From contig NZ_CP113916.1 in assembly GCF_029395455.1 (NCBI RefSeq), positions 1,488,001 to 1,552,000 on the forward strand: a DNA stretch of 64,000 nucleotides. Reading direction: 5' to 3'. The notes below the pieces were generated by a model that was not told where the DNA came from, searched no databases, and worked only from the letters and a program-made list of their open reading frames with translations. The position numbers and the translations under genes were made by a program. Shown in pieces: positions 4,781 to 9,609 of this stretch. This stretch comes from Lactobacillus sp. ESL0785 (GTDB lineage Bacteria > Bacillota > Bacilli > Lactobacillales > Lactobacillaceae). Within the stretch, counting starts at the first letter, position 1; each line of letters begins with the position of its first letter.

Positions 4781-6589
4781 ATGGCAATTCCAAAAAGAAC
4801 TGATGTCCCTGATCATTTAAAATGGGACTTAACCCGCGTTTTCAAATCTGATCTTGACTGGGAACATGAATATACAACAGTTAAAAATGAAATACAAACT
4901 TTAAGCAATTTAGTAGCAGACTTTGTTACATCCGGTCAAAAGTTATATGCTGGTTTAACGCAGATTTTAGCAGTTGGCCGTAAGCTAGAAAAACTCTACG
5001 TCTATGCAACCATGTCTAGTGATGTTGATACAAAAGATGCTCATTATTTAGGTTATGTTGCTCAGGCTCAAGCTTTAGCTAGTCAATTTGCGGCTGCAAC
5101 AGCCTTTATTAATCCCGCAATTTTAAGTATTTCTGAAGAAAAATTAACCGAGTTTAAGCAAGAAGAGCCGCGATTAACAGCATACAGCCACTGGCTTGAC
5201 CAAATTAACCAAATGCGGACGCATACCTTGTCAGCCCAAGAAGAAAAGCTAGTTGCCGATGCTGGTGATGCAATGGGAATTTCAGAAAACACCTTTAACG
5301 TATTGACTAATTCCGATATGGAATACGGTTATGTCCAAAATGACGCTGGTGAAATGGTTCAACTTTCTGATGGTCTATATTCATTGTTAATTCAATCGCA
5401 AAATCGCTCGGTGCGACAAAATGCTTTTGATGTCATGTATGCCACCTACGGCCAATTTGAAAATTCACTAGCTTCAACACTTTCTGGGGTTGTCAAAGAA
5501 CACAACTATACTGCTAAGGTGCATCATTATGATTCTGCTCGCAGCAGTGCCTTACATGAAAATGGCGTTCCTACTGTTGTTTACGATACTTTAATTAAGG
5601 AAGTTGACACTCATCTTGACTTACTTCATCGCTACGTTGACCTCCGAAAACAAATTTTAGGGTTAGATAAATTACAAATGTGGGACATGTACGTGCCTCT
5701 AACCGGTAAACCAGCAATCTCATATACTTTTGCTGAAGCTAAACAAGAAGCTAAACAGGCACTAGCACCATTAGGCAGTGATTACTTAAAACATGTTGAT
5801 TATATTTTTAACAATCGCGTGATTGACGTAGTCGAATCGCAAAATAAAGTTACTGGCGCATACTCTGGTGGTTCATACGATACTGATCCCTATGAACTGC
5901 TTAATTGGGAAGACAATATCGATTCGCTCTATACCTTAGTTCACGAAACTGGTCACTCTGTCCATAGTATGTACACCCGTGAAACTCAGCCTTATGTTTA
6001 TGGTGATTATCCAATTTTTGTTGCCGAAATTGCCTCAACAACTAATGAAAATATTCTAACAGAATACTTTTTAGACCACATTACTGATCCTAAGACGCGT
6101 GCCTTTGTCCTCAACTATTATCTTGATTCTTTCAAAGGAACACTTTTCAGACAAACCCAATTTGCAGAATTCGAGCAGTGGTTGCACGAACAGGATGCTC
6201 AAGGTAAACCTCTGACTGCTGACCACCTTAACGAATTCTATGGTCAATTAAACCAACGTTATTACGGTGATAGTGTTGCATCCGGTGGTGACATCGCCAA
6301 AGAATGGGCTCGAATCCCGCATTTTTACTATGATTTCTACGTTTATCAATATGCCACTGGCTTTGCGGCTGCGACAGCTCTAGCTAACAACGTTGTTCAT
6401 GGTACAAATAAGCAACGTGAAGCTTATCTTGGTTATCTTAAGTCTGGATCCAGTGACTATCCTACCGAAATTATGAAACACGCTGGTGTCGATATGACTA
6501 AGCCGGATTATTTAGAAGCTGCCTTTACTACCTTTGACCAACGACTAGCTGAGTTCGAGCAAATCATTCACACTAATTTTTTAAACTAA
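4781..6589 (+). CDS. pepF: Oligoendopeptidase F (M3B metallopeptidase)
   Basis: 602 aa, the usual family length. The zinc motif HETGH starts at H388 (H388, E389, H392), with the third ligand expected in the following segment (FVAEIASTTNE). A perfect AGGAG ribosome site lies 8 nt before the ATG. PepF is a cytoplasmic peptidase that cuts peptides of about 7-17 residues inside the chain and supplies amino acids after peptide uptake. It is transcribed divergently from the LCP gene and probably stands alone, since a strong promoter for the next operon follows at 6603. Confidence 0.93.
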   Translation: MAIPKRTDVPDHLKWDLTRVFKSDLDWEHEYTTVKNEIQTLSNLVADFVTSGQKLYAGLTQILAVGRKLEKLYVYATMSSDVDTKDAHYLGYVAQAQALASQFAAATAFINPAILSISEEKLTEFKQEEPRLTAYSHWLDQINQMRTHTLSAQEEKLVADAGDAMGISENTFNVLTNSDMEYGYVQNDAGEMVQLSDGLYSLLIQSQNRSVRQNAFDVMYATYGQFENSLASTLSGVVKEHNYTAKVHHYDSARSSALHENGVPTVVYDTLIKEVDTHLDLLHRYVDLRKQILGLDKLQMWDMYVPLTGKPAISYTFAEAKQEAKQALAPLGSDYLKHVDYIFNNRVIDVVESQNKVTGAYSGGSYDTDPYELLNWEDNIDSLYTLVHETGHSVHSMYTRETQPYVYGDYPIFVAEIASTTNENILTEYFLDHITDPKTRAFVLNYYLDSFKGTLFRQTQFAEFEQWLHEQDAQGKPLTADHLNEFYGQLNQRYYGDSVASGGDIAKEWARIPHFYYDFYVYQYATGFAAATALANNVVHGTNKQREAYLGYLKSGSSDYPTEIMKHAGVDMTKPDYLEAAFTTFDQRLAEFEQIIHTNFLN

Positions 6590-6602
6590 TTTCTTAATTA
6601 TA

Positions 6603-6631
6603 TTGACTTTATTTTTTAAGTATTTTATAAT
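6603..6631 (+). promoter_or_regulatory. Sigma-A promoter of the TrpXYZ-type ABC operon leader
   Basis: TTGACT (6603-6608), a 17-nt spacer and TATAAT (6626-6631): a near-consensus promoter. Transcription would begin near 6638, giving a leader of about 270 nt before the first transporter gene. Confidence 0.85.
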
Positions 6632-6660
6632 TTTAACATTGAGAGTTGGAGGTAATTCTG

Positions 6661-6726
6661 ATGAACACACTAGAATGTTACAGATTACAGTTAAATACTC
6701 GTTTTTACTTTAGCTATTATAGATAG
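6661..6726 (+). CDS. Phe/Tyr-rich leader peptide (21 aa)
   Basis: A 21-codon frame starts with ATG 8 nt after a perfect GGAGG (6648-6652) and stops with TAG at 6724-6726. Its last eight residues are Arg-preceded F15, Y16, F17, S18, Y19, Y20, R21, so five of the final seven are Phe or Tyr; there is also Y7. There is no Trp. The 3' end of the frame is segment 1 of the leader's first long stem. Strong ribosome site, short length, clustered codons for one amino-acid class and a downstream terminator are the marks of a classical attenuator peptide. Expression is not proven. Confidence 0.6.
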   Translation: MNTLECYRLQLNTRFYFSYYR

Positions 6727-6863
6727 TGTTTGGATTCATCTAGATGGATTCAAACGGAACGCAAGTTTGAATTTATCTATGATGGCTAAAGCAATTTGGT
6801 TGCAATTAGTCACATACTTCTAAGTGGCTAATCGCAGCAATTAATTTTTATGATGATTTTGGG

Positions 6864-6895
6864 ATACCCGCTTAGAAATAAGTGGGTATTTTTTT
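6864..6895 (+). terminator. Intrinsic terminator (attenuator) in the ABC operon leader
   Basis: ATACCCGCTTA (6864-6874), a GAAA loop and TAAGTGGGTAT (6879-6889), followed by a run of T to 6895. It ends only about 4 nt before the ribosome site of the first structural gene, so it can only act as a conditional terminator of this operon. Confidence 0.85.
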
Positions 6896-6911
6896 ATTGG
6901 AGGAAATTATC

Positions 6912-7883
6912 ATGCATTATCATCTTAAAAAATTAATTATGGGCGTTAGTCTAGCTGGTCTACTATTACTAGGCGGCTGCAGTCAAAATAAAACTAGTAA
7001 AACCGCCGTCAAGCACGTTGGTGTCCTACAAGTTGTCCAGCACCCTTCGCTTGACAAAGCCTATCAAGGTTTTAAAGAAGGACTCAAAGATGGTGGCTAC
7101 GTTGAAGGCAAAAACCTTAAAATTGATTATCAAAACGCCCAAAACAGTCAAGACAATTTAAAGAGTATGAGTGACAAATTAATTAATGAAAAATCTGACT
7201 TGTTGTTAGGCATTGCCACACCAGCCGCACAAAGTTTAGCAAATGCGACAACTAAAATTCCCATTGTGGTAACAGCCGTTACCGATCTTAAAGCTGCTAA
7301 ACTTGTTAATTCGCAAGCTAAACCCGGTAGAAATGTCACGGGAACAACTGATATGGTTTCAATTGATAAACAAATCAAGTTACTGCTATCAATCACTCCG
7401 AAAGCTAAGACCATTGGCATTATGTACAATGCCGGTGAAGCTAATTCTAAAATCCAAGCTGACCTCGCAGTTGCCGCACTTAAAAAGGCTGGCATTAAAG
7501 CAGTCGTTAAGACGGCTAATACCACCAATGACGTTCAACAAGTTACCGAAACTTTAGCAGATAGGGTTCAAGGAATATACGTACCAACAGACAATACTTT
7601 TGCTTCGGCAGCTTCACTTGTTGGCAAGGTCGTTAAAGACAAGAAGATTCCGCTAGTGGCAGGCTCAGTTGACCAAGTCAAAACTGGTGGCTTGGCTACT
7701 ATCGGCATTGATTACGAGGCCCTTGGCAGACAAACTGGTAAAATGGCCGCTAAAATTTTAGCTGGGCAGGCTAAACCAGAAGATATGGCTGTCGAAAAAG
7801 CCGCTAACTTAAAATTAGTAGTTAATAAAAAAATGGCCAAAGCATTAGGCATTAATCCGAATGCGATTAAAGCACCTAAATAA
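6912..7883 (+). CDS. ABC transporter substrate-binding lipoprotein (COG2984, TrpX-like)
   Basis: 323 aa from ATG 6912 (GGAGG at 6899-6903, spacing 8). An in-frame upstream GTG at 6882 lies inside the terminator stem and is unlikely to be used. A signal peptide ends in the lipobox LLGGC (lipidated Cys23), followed by a two-lobe binding protein (GVLQVVQHPSLDKAYQGFKEG; GIDYEALGRQTG). This family, with the adjacent permease and ATPase, includes the tryptophan/aromatic transporter TrpXYZ of Streptococcus. The Phe/Tyr leader supports an aromatic substrate, but the ligand is not proven. Confidence 0.85.
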   Translation: MHYHLKKLIMGVSLAGLLLLGGCSQNKTSKTAVKHVGVLQVVQHPSLDKAYQGFKEGLKDGGYVEGKNLKIDYQNAQNSQDNLKSMSDKLINEKSDLLLGIATPAAQSLANATTKIPIVVTAVTDLKAAKLVNSQAKPGRNVTGTTDMVSIDKQIKLLLSITPKAKTIGIMYNAGEANSKIQADLAVAALKKAGIKAVVKTANTTNDVQQVTETLADRVQGIYVPTDNTFASAASLVGKVVKDKKIPLVAGSVDQVKTGGLATIGIDYEALGRQTGKMAAKILAGQAKPEDMAVEKAANLKLVVNKKMAKALGINPNAIKAPK

Positions 7884-7910
7884 TTTAAAAAATAAAGGGG
7901 ATAGTAAAAC

Positions 7911-8828
7911 ATGATGAATACTTTTGGGGATTTACTTATTTCAGCAACTTCACAGGGTCTACTCTGGTCCCTAATGGCCATTGGTGTATACCTAACATTT
8001 AGGATTTTAGACCTCGCAGATATGACTGCTGAGGGCAGTTTTCCACTTGGCGGAGCAATTACAACAATGTGCTTAATTAAAGGAATTAACCCAATTTTAG
8101 CTACAGCTGCGGCTTTTGGTGGTGGAATGATTGCTGGATTAATTACGGGCGTTCTAAATACTAAATTGAAAATTCCAGACTTATTAGCCGGAATTGTAAC
8201 CATGACTGGACTATATTCAATTACCTCACGTGTAATGCAAAACGCCGCCAATGTTTCATTATTAGGCAAAGATACGATCTTTACTATTGCCCAAAATTGG
8301 GGCTTAGCCCGCACTAACGCTGTCATTGTAATGGGGCTCATTATCGCCTTATTAGTAATTATTATTTTGGTTGCCTTCTTCAAAACGGAAATCGGCTTAG
8401 CAATGCGAGCAACTGGTGATAATCCTGAGATGAGTGCTGCTAATGGGATTAAAACTCAAAGTATGAAAATTTGTGGTTATATGATTTCTAATGGCTGTAT
8501 TGCTCTTTCTGGTGCTTTACTTGCCCAAAATAACGGATTTGCTGACCTGAACTCTGGTGTCGGGACTTTGGTTGTCGGCCTAGCCTCAATTATCATTGCA
8601 GAAGTACTATTACATAATTTAGGAATTAGTGCTCGCTTACTCACTTTAGTTCTTGGGGCGATTGTTTACCGGATTATTTTAGCCCTAGTCTTTCAAATGA
8701 ACGTTCAGCCTTCTGACGCTAAGCTGGCCTCAGCTTTGGTATTAGTTATCTGCCTTGCGCTACCTAATTTTCACTTATTACATCACCATCATGGAGGAAC
8801 CAAAAATGTCACCCGTACTAGAAATTAA
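7911..8828 (+). CDS. ABC transporter permease (COG4120, TrpY-like)
   Basis: 305 aa with about eight hydrophobic segments. It belongs to the branched-chain-type permease superfamily (LADMTAEGSFPLGG, VAFFKTEIGLAMRATGDNPEMSAANGI). It lies 27 nt after the binding-protein gene, with ribosome site GGGG before ATG-ATG. The C-terminal tail is His-rich (LLHHHHGG) and its last 23 nt overlap the start of the ATPase gene. It would form the membrane channel of the importer. Confidence 0.88.
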   Translation: MMNTFGDLLISATSQGLLWSLMAIGVYLTFRILDLADMTAEGSFPLGGAITTMCLIKGINPILATAAAFGGGMIAGLITGVLNTKLKIPDLLAGIVTMTGLYSITSRVMQNAANVSLLGKDTIFTIAQNWGLARTNAVIVMGLIIALLVIIILVAFFKTEIGLAMRATGDNPEMSAANGIKTQSMKICGYMISNGCIALSGALLAQNNGFADLNSGVGTLVVGLASIIIAEVLLHNLGISARLLTLVLGAIVYRIILALVFQMNVQPSDAKLASALVLVICLALPNFHLLHHHHGGTKNVTRTRN

Positions 8829-9609
8829 AAATCTTCACCAAACTTTTGAACAAGGCACAGTTAATGAAAATCGCGTCTTACGCGGCGTTGATCTTAAACT
8901 AGCTGCTGGTGACTTCGTTACTATTATCGGCAGTAATGGTGCTGGGAAATCAACTTTACTCAATAGCATTGCAGGCACTTTACCAATTCAGGAAGGACAA
9001 ATTATCCTAAATGGAAAAGATATCACTAAATTATCTGTAACTAAAAGAGCCAAAAGTATTAGCCGTGTTTTTCAAGACCCCAAAATGGGGACAGCTGTTC
9101 GTTTGAGTGTTGAAGAAAATCTCGCTCTCGCAATGAAACGCGGTCAGCATCGCACTTTTCGCGCTGGTGTTAAAAAGCAAGATCGACAATTCTTCAAAAA
9201 GCAACTTGCCCAGCTTGACCTAAATTTAGAAAATCGCCTAAAAACTGAAATTGGCCTGCTCTCTGGCGGTCAGCGCCAAGCTATTACATTACTCATGGCC
9301 ACTCTTAAACGTCCTGATCTAATTTTGCTTGACGAACATACGGCGGCTCTTGACCCGCAGACTTCAATTATCGTTATGCAATTAACAGAAAAATTAATCA
9401 GCGAGCAAAAACTAACGGCTTTCATGGTAACTCACAATATGGAAGACGCGATTCACTACGGTAATCGTCTAATCATGCTCCATCAAGGACGAATCGCCTT
9501 AAACCTTGCTGGAGAAGAAAAGAAAAAAATGACTGTGCCACGGTTAATGGCTTTATTCCAAAAACACGTTGGTACGGAATTAAAAGACGATGCCGTTTTG
9601 TTAGCTTAA
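8806..9609 (+). CDS. ABC transporter ATP-binding protein (COG1101, TrpZ-like)
   Basis: 267 aa from ATG 8806, chosen because GGAGG (8793-8797) lies 8 nt upstream; a longer frame from 8755 has no such site. Walker A is GSNGAGKST (residues 42-50), the signature is LLSGGQRQA and Walker B is LILLDEHTAALDP. Its start lies inside the permease gene, which suggests translational coupling. It powers the importer encoded by the two preceding genes. Confidence 0.9.
   Translation: MSPVLEIKNLHQTFEQGTVNENRVLRGVDLKLAAGDFVTIIGSNGAGKSTLLNSIAGTLPIQEGQIILNGKDITKLSVTKRAKSISRVFQDPKMGTAVRLSVEENLALAMKRGQHRTFRAGVKKQDRQFFKKQLAQLDLNLENRLKTEIGLLSGGQRQAITLLMATLKRPDLILLDEHTAALDPQTSIIVMQLTEKLISEQKLTAFMVTHNMEDAIHYGNRLIMLHQGRIALNLAGEEKKKMTVPRLMALFQKHVGTELKDDAVLLA

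Follow-up and report, generated by a model that had tools for sequence, protein, structure and literature searches.

Title: A conserved leader peptide very probably couples phenylalanine/tyrosine supply to expression of an ABC importer operon in Lactobacillus and gives a likely function to the RF02863 RNA family

A short peptide-coding leader very probably gauges the supply of phenylalanine and tyrosine in Lactobacillus sp. ESL0785 and switches on an amino-acid importer. The leader lies in the window, by which we mean the whole 64-kb stretch of DNA that was analysed (1488001–1552000 of a 1.69-Mb single-contig genome), and it precedes genes for a substrate-binding protein (SBP), a permease and an ATPase that form an ABC operon (6912–9609). 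Sequence comparison revealed an aromatic-rich open reading frame (ORF) led by a Shine-Dalgarno (SD) site, with its sensor codons; a series of mutually exclusive stems, the first of which overlaps the end of this ORF and which covary among relatives; and downstream genes devoted to aromatic amino acids. We hold with considerable confidence that this region acts as a classical translation-coupled transcription attenuator sensing charged tRNA-Phe/tRNA-Tyr. The RNA belongs to Rfam family RF02863, catalogued as a small RNA, which we re-read as, very probably, a cis-acting leader.

The features of the locus are collected in Table 1. A preliminary description, made from the sequence alone, had pointed to a near-consensus promoter, to a 21-codon frame with a ribosome site and five aromatic residues among its last seven, and to an intrinsic terminator ahead of the first gene, and all of these were found again. 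The promoter is the top match among 13 promoter-like sites between 6000 and 10500, a number at chance level (12.9 expected), and the count of terminator-like sites in the region (4 vs 3.5 expected) is by itself equally unremarkable. The anatomy rises above chance through its conservation, that is, through the match to RF02863 (E 2.2e-09 over the window) and the frame bias of a Leu-Asn motif in the leader peptide. Among the 139 leaders that we compared, a loose promoter pattern, for which there is no null, was present within 90 nt upstream in 106, and an SD-like site in 129, a count favoured by the choice of start codons, in which those with such a site were preferred.

Table 1. Features of the leader and its operon in the window
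Feature	Coordinates	Strand	Basis or remark
pepF	4781–6589		gene just upstream of the leader region
Sigma-70-type promoter TTGACT-17-TATAAT	6603–6631	+	near-consensus, 11/12 positions
SD site GGAGG of the leader peptide	6648–6652	+	sequence
Leader peptide ORF MNTLECYRLQLNTRFYFSYYR*, 21 codons and stop	6661–6726	+	sequence; homologous ORFs
Conserved Q-L-N codons CAG TTA AAT	6688–6696	+	leader comparison
Sensor codons Phe Tyr Phe Ser Tyr Tyr	6703–6720	+	sequence
Segment 1	6708–6726	+	end of leader ORF; partner of segment 2
13-pair hairpin directly after the stop codon	6728–6755	+	proposed RNA polymerase pause hairpin
Segment 2	6773–6795	+	6773–6791 with segment 1, or 6778–6795 with segment 3
Segment 3	6799–6816	+	with 2 (antitermination), or 6799–6813 with 4 (termination)
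Segment 4	6818–6838	+	6824–6838 with segment 3, or 6818–6827 with 5 (antiterminator)
Segments 5:6, predicted intrinsic terminator and T-run	6861–6895	+	hairpin 6861–6892; 6868–6877, antiterminator target
RF02863 sRNA_2410 match	6710–6902	+	model 1–196 of 196
SBP, PF04392	6912–7883	+	predicted Phe/Tyr-binding; S252 and Y268 at two known selectivity positions
Permease, PF02653	7911–8828	+	
ATPase, PF00005	8806–9609	+	

The proposed mechanism is as follows. When Phe and Tyr are ample, the ribosome would complete the peptide and leave, segments 1 and 2 would pair, then 3 and 4, and the 5:6 hairpin would end transcription; the same structures would form if a ribosome never started translation. A ribosome stalled at codons 15–20 (F-Y-F-S-Y-Y) would cover segment 1, which coincides with the final sensor codons and the stop codon. 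Segment 2, thus freed, would take segment 3, leaving segment 4 to pair with the left arm of the terminator, and the operon would be read through. The hairpin behind the stop codon may make the polymerase wait for the ribosome. We infer termination, ribosome stalling, the role of this pause hairpin and the response to Phe and Tyr from the arrangement of these elements.

Folding of 6638–6897 gave −80.4 kcal/mol (z −6.7), a value equalled by 0 of 200 shuffles. The sampled lineages possess two alternative sets of pairings, 1:2 with 3:4 and 5:6, or 2:3 with 4:5. In the window, TTCTAAGTGG (6818–6827) forms ten pairs with CCGCTTAGAA (6868–6877), and the same segment (6824–6838) pairs upstream with 6799–6813; both partners that had been proposed for it were therefore found. 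We located the segments as best pairing partners at the 139 leader loci and compared their mean pairing energies with those of shuffles. Three loci offer no room between segments and were omitted from the tests of 1:2, 2:3 and 3:4. Against dinucleotide shuffles, the remaining 136 gave −19.9 vs −10.7 for 1:2, −16.3 vs −9.4 for 2:3 and −17.0 vs −9.6 for 3:4, while 4:5, at all 139, gave −14.9 vs −9.4. Shuffles matched the real pairing in 75/2720, 119/2720, 65/2720 and 206/2780 cases, respectively, and all four alternative pairings thus beat the shuffles. For 4:5, at least one of 20 shuffles was as good at 67 of the 139 loci, and in 13991 of 17646 comparisons with unlike terminator arms from other loci, the cognate arm paired better. 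The terminators were taken as the best hairpin ahead of a T-run in a set range, a choice made without a shuffle control.

The most telling change is the concerted replacement of the last leader codon and of segments 2, 3 and 4. At the 101 loci whose last codon is AGA, segment 2 carries TCT (93/101), segment 3 AGA (88/101) and segment 4 CTA (93/101); at the 28 loci ending in GGN (GGA), the corresponding triplets and tetranucleotide are TCC (26/28), GGA (25/28) and CCAT (26/28). Seven of the 136 loci have other last codons and were excluded from this cross-table. Segment 5 follows less strictly (TAG in 80/101, the GG form in 19/28, the opposite form in 10/101). Exchanging segments between the AGA and GGA types costs 3 to 11 kcal/mol. 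The concert between the last codon and the segments is partly built in, because the segments were located as best partners.

Compensatory changes in the alternative stems, which the preliminary description had proposed to look for in related lactobacilli, were also found, most weakly for 2:3 and 4:5 in the window's own clade. In an alignment of 17 members of this clade, where the pairing counts are favoured because the structures were drawn from the window, the termination form had 90.1% of its cells paired and double-sided changes at 14 pairs (0/500 shuffles), and the outer part of 3:4 was only 64.3% paired. The antitermination form was 86.2% paired, with 5 pairs changed on both sides, a number reached by 64/500 shuffles, and further pair types that were reached by 206/500. 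The own-clade covariation for 2:3 and 4:5 is modest and would be weak if taken alone. The hairpin behind the stop codon was paired in 98.2% of cells among the 17 relatives, with 4 pairs changed on both sides.

Leaders of this kind stand before genes for aromatic SBPs, shikimate-pathway enzymes, PheA or an aminotransferase. Among 225 leader items, 163 had a downstream ORF in the DNA examined, which encoded an SBP in 140 cases, AroE in 18, an aminotransferase in 2, and PheA, TrpB and an unclear product in 1 each; the SBP rows include near-identical proteins. Pfam or NCBIfam confirmed one AroE, PheA, both aminotransferases and TrpB, and the other AroE proteins were recognized by eye. A second tally, among the 120 pattern matches listed, gave 63 SBP, 28 AroE, 6 DAHP synthase, 13 other ORFs (three chorismate synthase, five dehydroquinate synthase, one shikimate kinase and four unrelated matches) and 10 with none, so that an aromatic gene followed in 106 of the 120. 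Ten of these listed matches had no Leu-Asn-type leader by a lenient test; several of them, in unrelated taxa, were taken as chance. Outside the order, leaders with similar tails precede DAHP synthase and prephenate dehydratase genes in one family of the class (f48), and at L178, in that family, the DAHP synthase behind the leader has a chorismate mutase. Also outside the order, a gene for a sodium:neurotransmitter symporter carries the leader MFRIISTNIWYSYRR (L174:270–317), with Trp among its aromatic codons.

The preliminary description had called the operon TrpXYZ-type; read as tryptophan transport, this label did not agree with the SBP. Solved relatives described in the available part of PMC6816091 differ at two positions: Glu-263 of the Tyr binder CD0873 is Ala in Phe and Trp binders, and Gln-284 of the Trp binder SP1069 is Tyr in Tyr and Phe binders. 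The alignment places these positions at S252 and Y268 of the window SBP, which therefore has Tyr, not Gln, at the Trp-selecting position. Its closest solved relative is CD0873 (250 bits vs 203 for SP1069). A second SBP paralog in the same genome (G000:C1:217170, 41% identity) is closest to SP1069 (238 bits vs 177 for CD0873), and it passes the NCBIfam TrpX equivalog NF041285 with 412.9 against a cut-off of 390, which the window SBP, at 329.5, fails. Of the two SBPs, the second paralog is the likelier TrpX. With that paralog passing the TrpX model and the window SBP failing it and having Tyr instead of Gln, the operon is probably an importer of Phe/Tyr, not of Trp. The leader peptide of the window mixes Phe and Tyr codons and may report on Phe, on Tyr or on both.

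The kind of leader agrees with the second of these positions among the SBPs compared, near-identical proteins included. SBPs behind Trp leaders have Gln in 47/48 cases and a gap in one, and those behind Phe/Tyr leaders have Tyr in 88/92 and Phe in 4/92. Since a single branch, with support 100 in a quick tree of 137 rows, separates the Trp-leader SBPs from the others, the association between the Trp leader and Gln represents one event. At the position facing the tyrosine hydroxyl, Asp was found in 8/15 SBPs with Tyr-type leaders, 0/27 with Phe-type and 0/50 with mixed leaders; because Asp arose once on the tree and there are only 2 independent pairs (sign test p 1), this link is suggestive at most. 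Neighbouring SBP genes can have leaders of different kinds, one with a Tyr run and the other with a Phe run, as in some Lactobacillaceae (for example L042, L054, L066 and L070) and at L021 and L075; in five of these six pairs, the position facing the tyrosine hydroxyl is Asp in the copy behind the Tyr run and Ala in its neighbour.

The TrpX paralog has a leader of its own, with the peptide MIQSFTLNLNKSWQSQQD at L179:848–904 (G000:C1:216847–216903). Such Trp leaders typically read LNxRWQSR, with one Trp codon. A WQS-type leader was found in 43 of 47 paralog upstream regions from Lactobacillaceae, near-duplicates included (the misses are L065, L082, L182 and L197), and in 35 of these 43 an Asn lies three codons ahead of the Trp. 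The paralogs of about 42% identity had seemed leaderless, an appearance that came from a detector demanding four aromatic residues; their Trp leaders were found. A covariance model of the Trp leader had matches in 155 of 295 Lactobacillales genomes (E 0.01), a count that includes genomes whose leaders trained the model and some matches to Phe/Tyr leaders. The matches that we examined lie mostly before TrpX-like genes and once before trpB, and beyond the family some Trp leaders carry a second Trp codon (WQNW, WQSW). Weak matches of the Trp model to some Phe/Tyr leaders, such as G378:C2:96906 (7e-5), make the two kinds of leader look homologous. At L237 and L148 (G378:C2:93866 and 96925), a Trp leader and its TrpX-like gene precede the Phe/Tyr leader of aroE by about 3 kb, and the match positions suggest the same arrangement in several other genomes of that family. 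At L249:133–180, a Trp leader is followed by an ORF that by eye resembles a group II intron reverse transcriptase, possibly an insertion between the leader and its operon.

The leader ORF occupies a corresponding position in Lactobacillaceae and in named records of Enterococcus, Streptococcus, Vagococcus, Tetragenococcus and Alkalibacterium; the SD sites of the streptococcal leaders are weak, and the first scan did not pick these leaders up. Its aromatic codons are retained in relatives, and the conservation of the peptide, which the preliminary description had proposed to check by alignment, extends to a Leu-Asn motif ahead of them. An upstream Leu-Asn or Phe-Asn occurs in the leader frame at 79 of 94 distinct RF02863-match loci, compared with 5 and 6 in the other two frames. 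A DNA pattern of the codons YFSY(F/Y)R only yielded 90 distinct upstream stretches, of which 75 have an in-frame Leu-Asn (3 and 3 in the other frames), with AAT as the Asn codon in 75/75. These two are the unselected counts; the motif occurs in 131 of the 139 selected leaders, a figure inflated because the hand-written patterns used to choose them included Leu-Asn-like residues (L121, L122, L124, L133 and L159 dropped out of this set). The motif starts four or five residues ahead of the aromatic run in 130 of the 131, and seven in one. Its Leu uses all six codons (53, 33, 25, 9, 7 and 3, with one Phe instead) and is therefore kept as a residue. Its Asn is encoded by AAT in 124 cases and AAC in 4, compared with 113 and 103 for the other Asn codons of the same leaders (136 leaders, Fisher p 3e-21). 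In the window this codon is 6694–6696, and the homologous Asn codons are nearly always AAU. No RNA partner was found for the Leu-Asn stretch when its 12 nt were compared with the downstream leader in 128 leaders; the pairing energy was no better than that of shuffles (−4.56 vs −5.63 kcal/mol), and base-pairing was rejected as the cause of the motif.

This motif bears on a different reading, in which a conserved nascent peptide arrests the ribosome, as in the TnaC or Erm leaders, and senses the free amino acid or the state of the ribosome instead of charged tRNA. Passive sensing has no need of a fixed peptide, and yet Leu-Asn is kept before the sensor codons of the Phe/Tyr leaders in spite of the free use of Leu codons, Asn holds its distance from Trp in most Trp leaders, and the Trp codon itself stands in the near-fixed context WQS. 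However, the RNA can account for most of the fixed C-terminal residues, because their codons constitute segment 1; the leader codons track the binding pocket of the downstream protein; and arrest by a free amino acid, combined with the antitermination logic of these stems, would turn importers and biosynthesis on in times of plenty. We consider arrest of this type rather unlikely. A broader proposal, which we offer tentatively and regard as somewhat doubtful, is that the Phe/Tyr and Trp leaders form one old RNA-plus-peptide family whose sensor codons were swapped together with the transporter pocket, as in T-box specifiers, and in which Leu-Asn(AAU) positions or prolongs the stall. If true, it would describe a leader-peptide sensor with a built-in nascent-chain module.

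The classical attenuator also has to be weighed against the catalogue entry of its RNA. The leader of the window, between its sensor codons and the ribosome site, matches RF02863, "Enterococcus sRNA 2410", with 70.3 bits (cut-off 61) over the full model length, and is thus a homologous RNA by covariance model. The family is filed as an Enterococcus sRNA, and its model takes in the leader ORF from an internal point onwards, so that the start codon, Leu-Asn and the earliest sensor codons fall outside it. The name very probably derives from Putative_sRNA_2410 of E. faecium, which the accessible part of PMC5593968 gives as annotated at 195 nt and seen as two transcripts on Northern blots. A table there lists it as 2.3-fold up by RNA-seq and 4.1-fold by qPCR under daptomycin (adjusted P 0.0335), and the text seen of the same paper states that no sRNA rose significantly and that sRNA_2410 was mostly uniform. 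These transcripts and the daptomycin values favour a trans-acting sRNA whose position before the operon is incidental, but the two transcripts could also fit a terminated leader. Against the trans-acting sRNA, which we regard as very improbable, the RNA at the loci examined as a rule directly precedes aromatic amino-acid genes that run the same way, at the frequency given above for the listed pattern matches; most of these loci have an SD-led ORF, and the terminator at the end can be opened by a segment ahead of it. A role in trans may exist as a by-product. In E. lactis CCM 8412, a gene for an SBP of the same protein family lies behind the best RF02863 match (206 bits), and one for DAHP synthase behind a second (73.7 bits). 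RF02863 was detected in at least 158 of 295 Lactobacillales genomes and at least 47 of 74 genera of the order, in at least 28 of 301 genomes of the window's family and in at least 27 of 299 genomes of the class; none of the 14 control genomes gave a match. These counts are minima because the search filters were strict.

Control by a T-box or another tRNA or metabolite riboswitch, for which the Trp T-box of trpXYZ in Streptococcus suis offers a precedent (PMC9382623, in the part available), can practically be set aside: RF02863 is the sole Rfam family in the window at the gathering threshold, and also at E 1 in 6500–7000, a T-box core pattern was absent from L001–L090, and an Rfam scan of 18 paralog upstream loci (L179 not among them) gave 0 matches. 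The preliminary description had likewise seen no T-box core, and it had named a covariance match to a known riboswitch or T-box as evidence that would speak against attenuation; no T-box match came up, and the covariance match that does exist is to the "sRNA" family RF02863.

These results provide a likely function for an Rfam family filed as an orphan sRNA and suggest a leader-peptide regulon for aromatic amino acids that spans the order, in which one would expect T-boxes. They also correct the probable substrate of a "TrpX" importer, and leader codons let the substrate be guessed. The Leu-Asn(AAU) motif raises the question of whether an amino-acid attenuator uses its own nascent peptide. Aromatic regulation in low-GC Gram-positives was reportedly treated by Panina et al. 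in 2003. In the literature searched, in which subscription journals are scarcely covered, we found no paper on aromatic leader peptides in Lactobacillales, and the only experimental work on these leaders was that in which the E. faecium "sRNA" was detected.

In Proteobacteria, attenuation by leader peptides is a classical mechanism, with the enteric his, trp and pheA leaders as examples. The leader of the window resembles them in its SD-led short ORF, its run of the sensed amino acid, its exclusive stems and its terminator, and it has six segments, as does the his leader. Unlike them, it belongs to another phylum, to one apparently homologous family that serves Phe and Tyr and, in a sister leader, Trp, and it has a conserved Leu-Asn(AAU) before the sensor codons. 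Within the Firmicutes, classical attenuation of this type has been described for histidine (Naville and Gautheret 2010, PMC2965389; Rodionov et al. 2022, PMC9413887); in the available parts of these sources, it concerns histidine alone, in bacilli (the B. cereus group), Peptostreptococcaceae, Lutispora and Erysipelotrichales, and not aromatic amino acids or Lactobacillales. The trpX T-box of S. suis (PMC9382623, available part) governs a related SBP operon, also through attenuation that responds to aminoacylation; however, it is a tRNA-binding riboswitch without a leader peptide.
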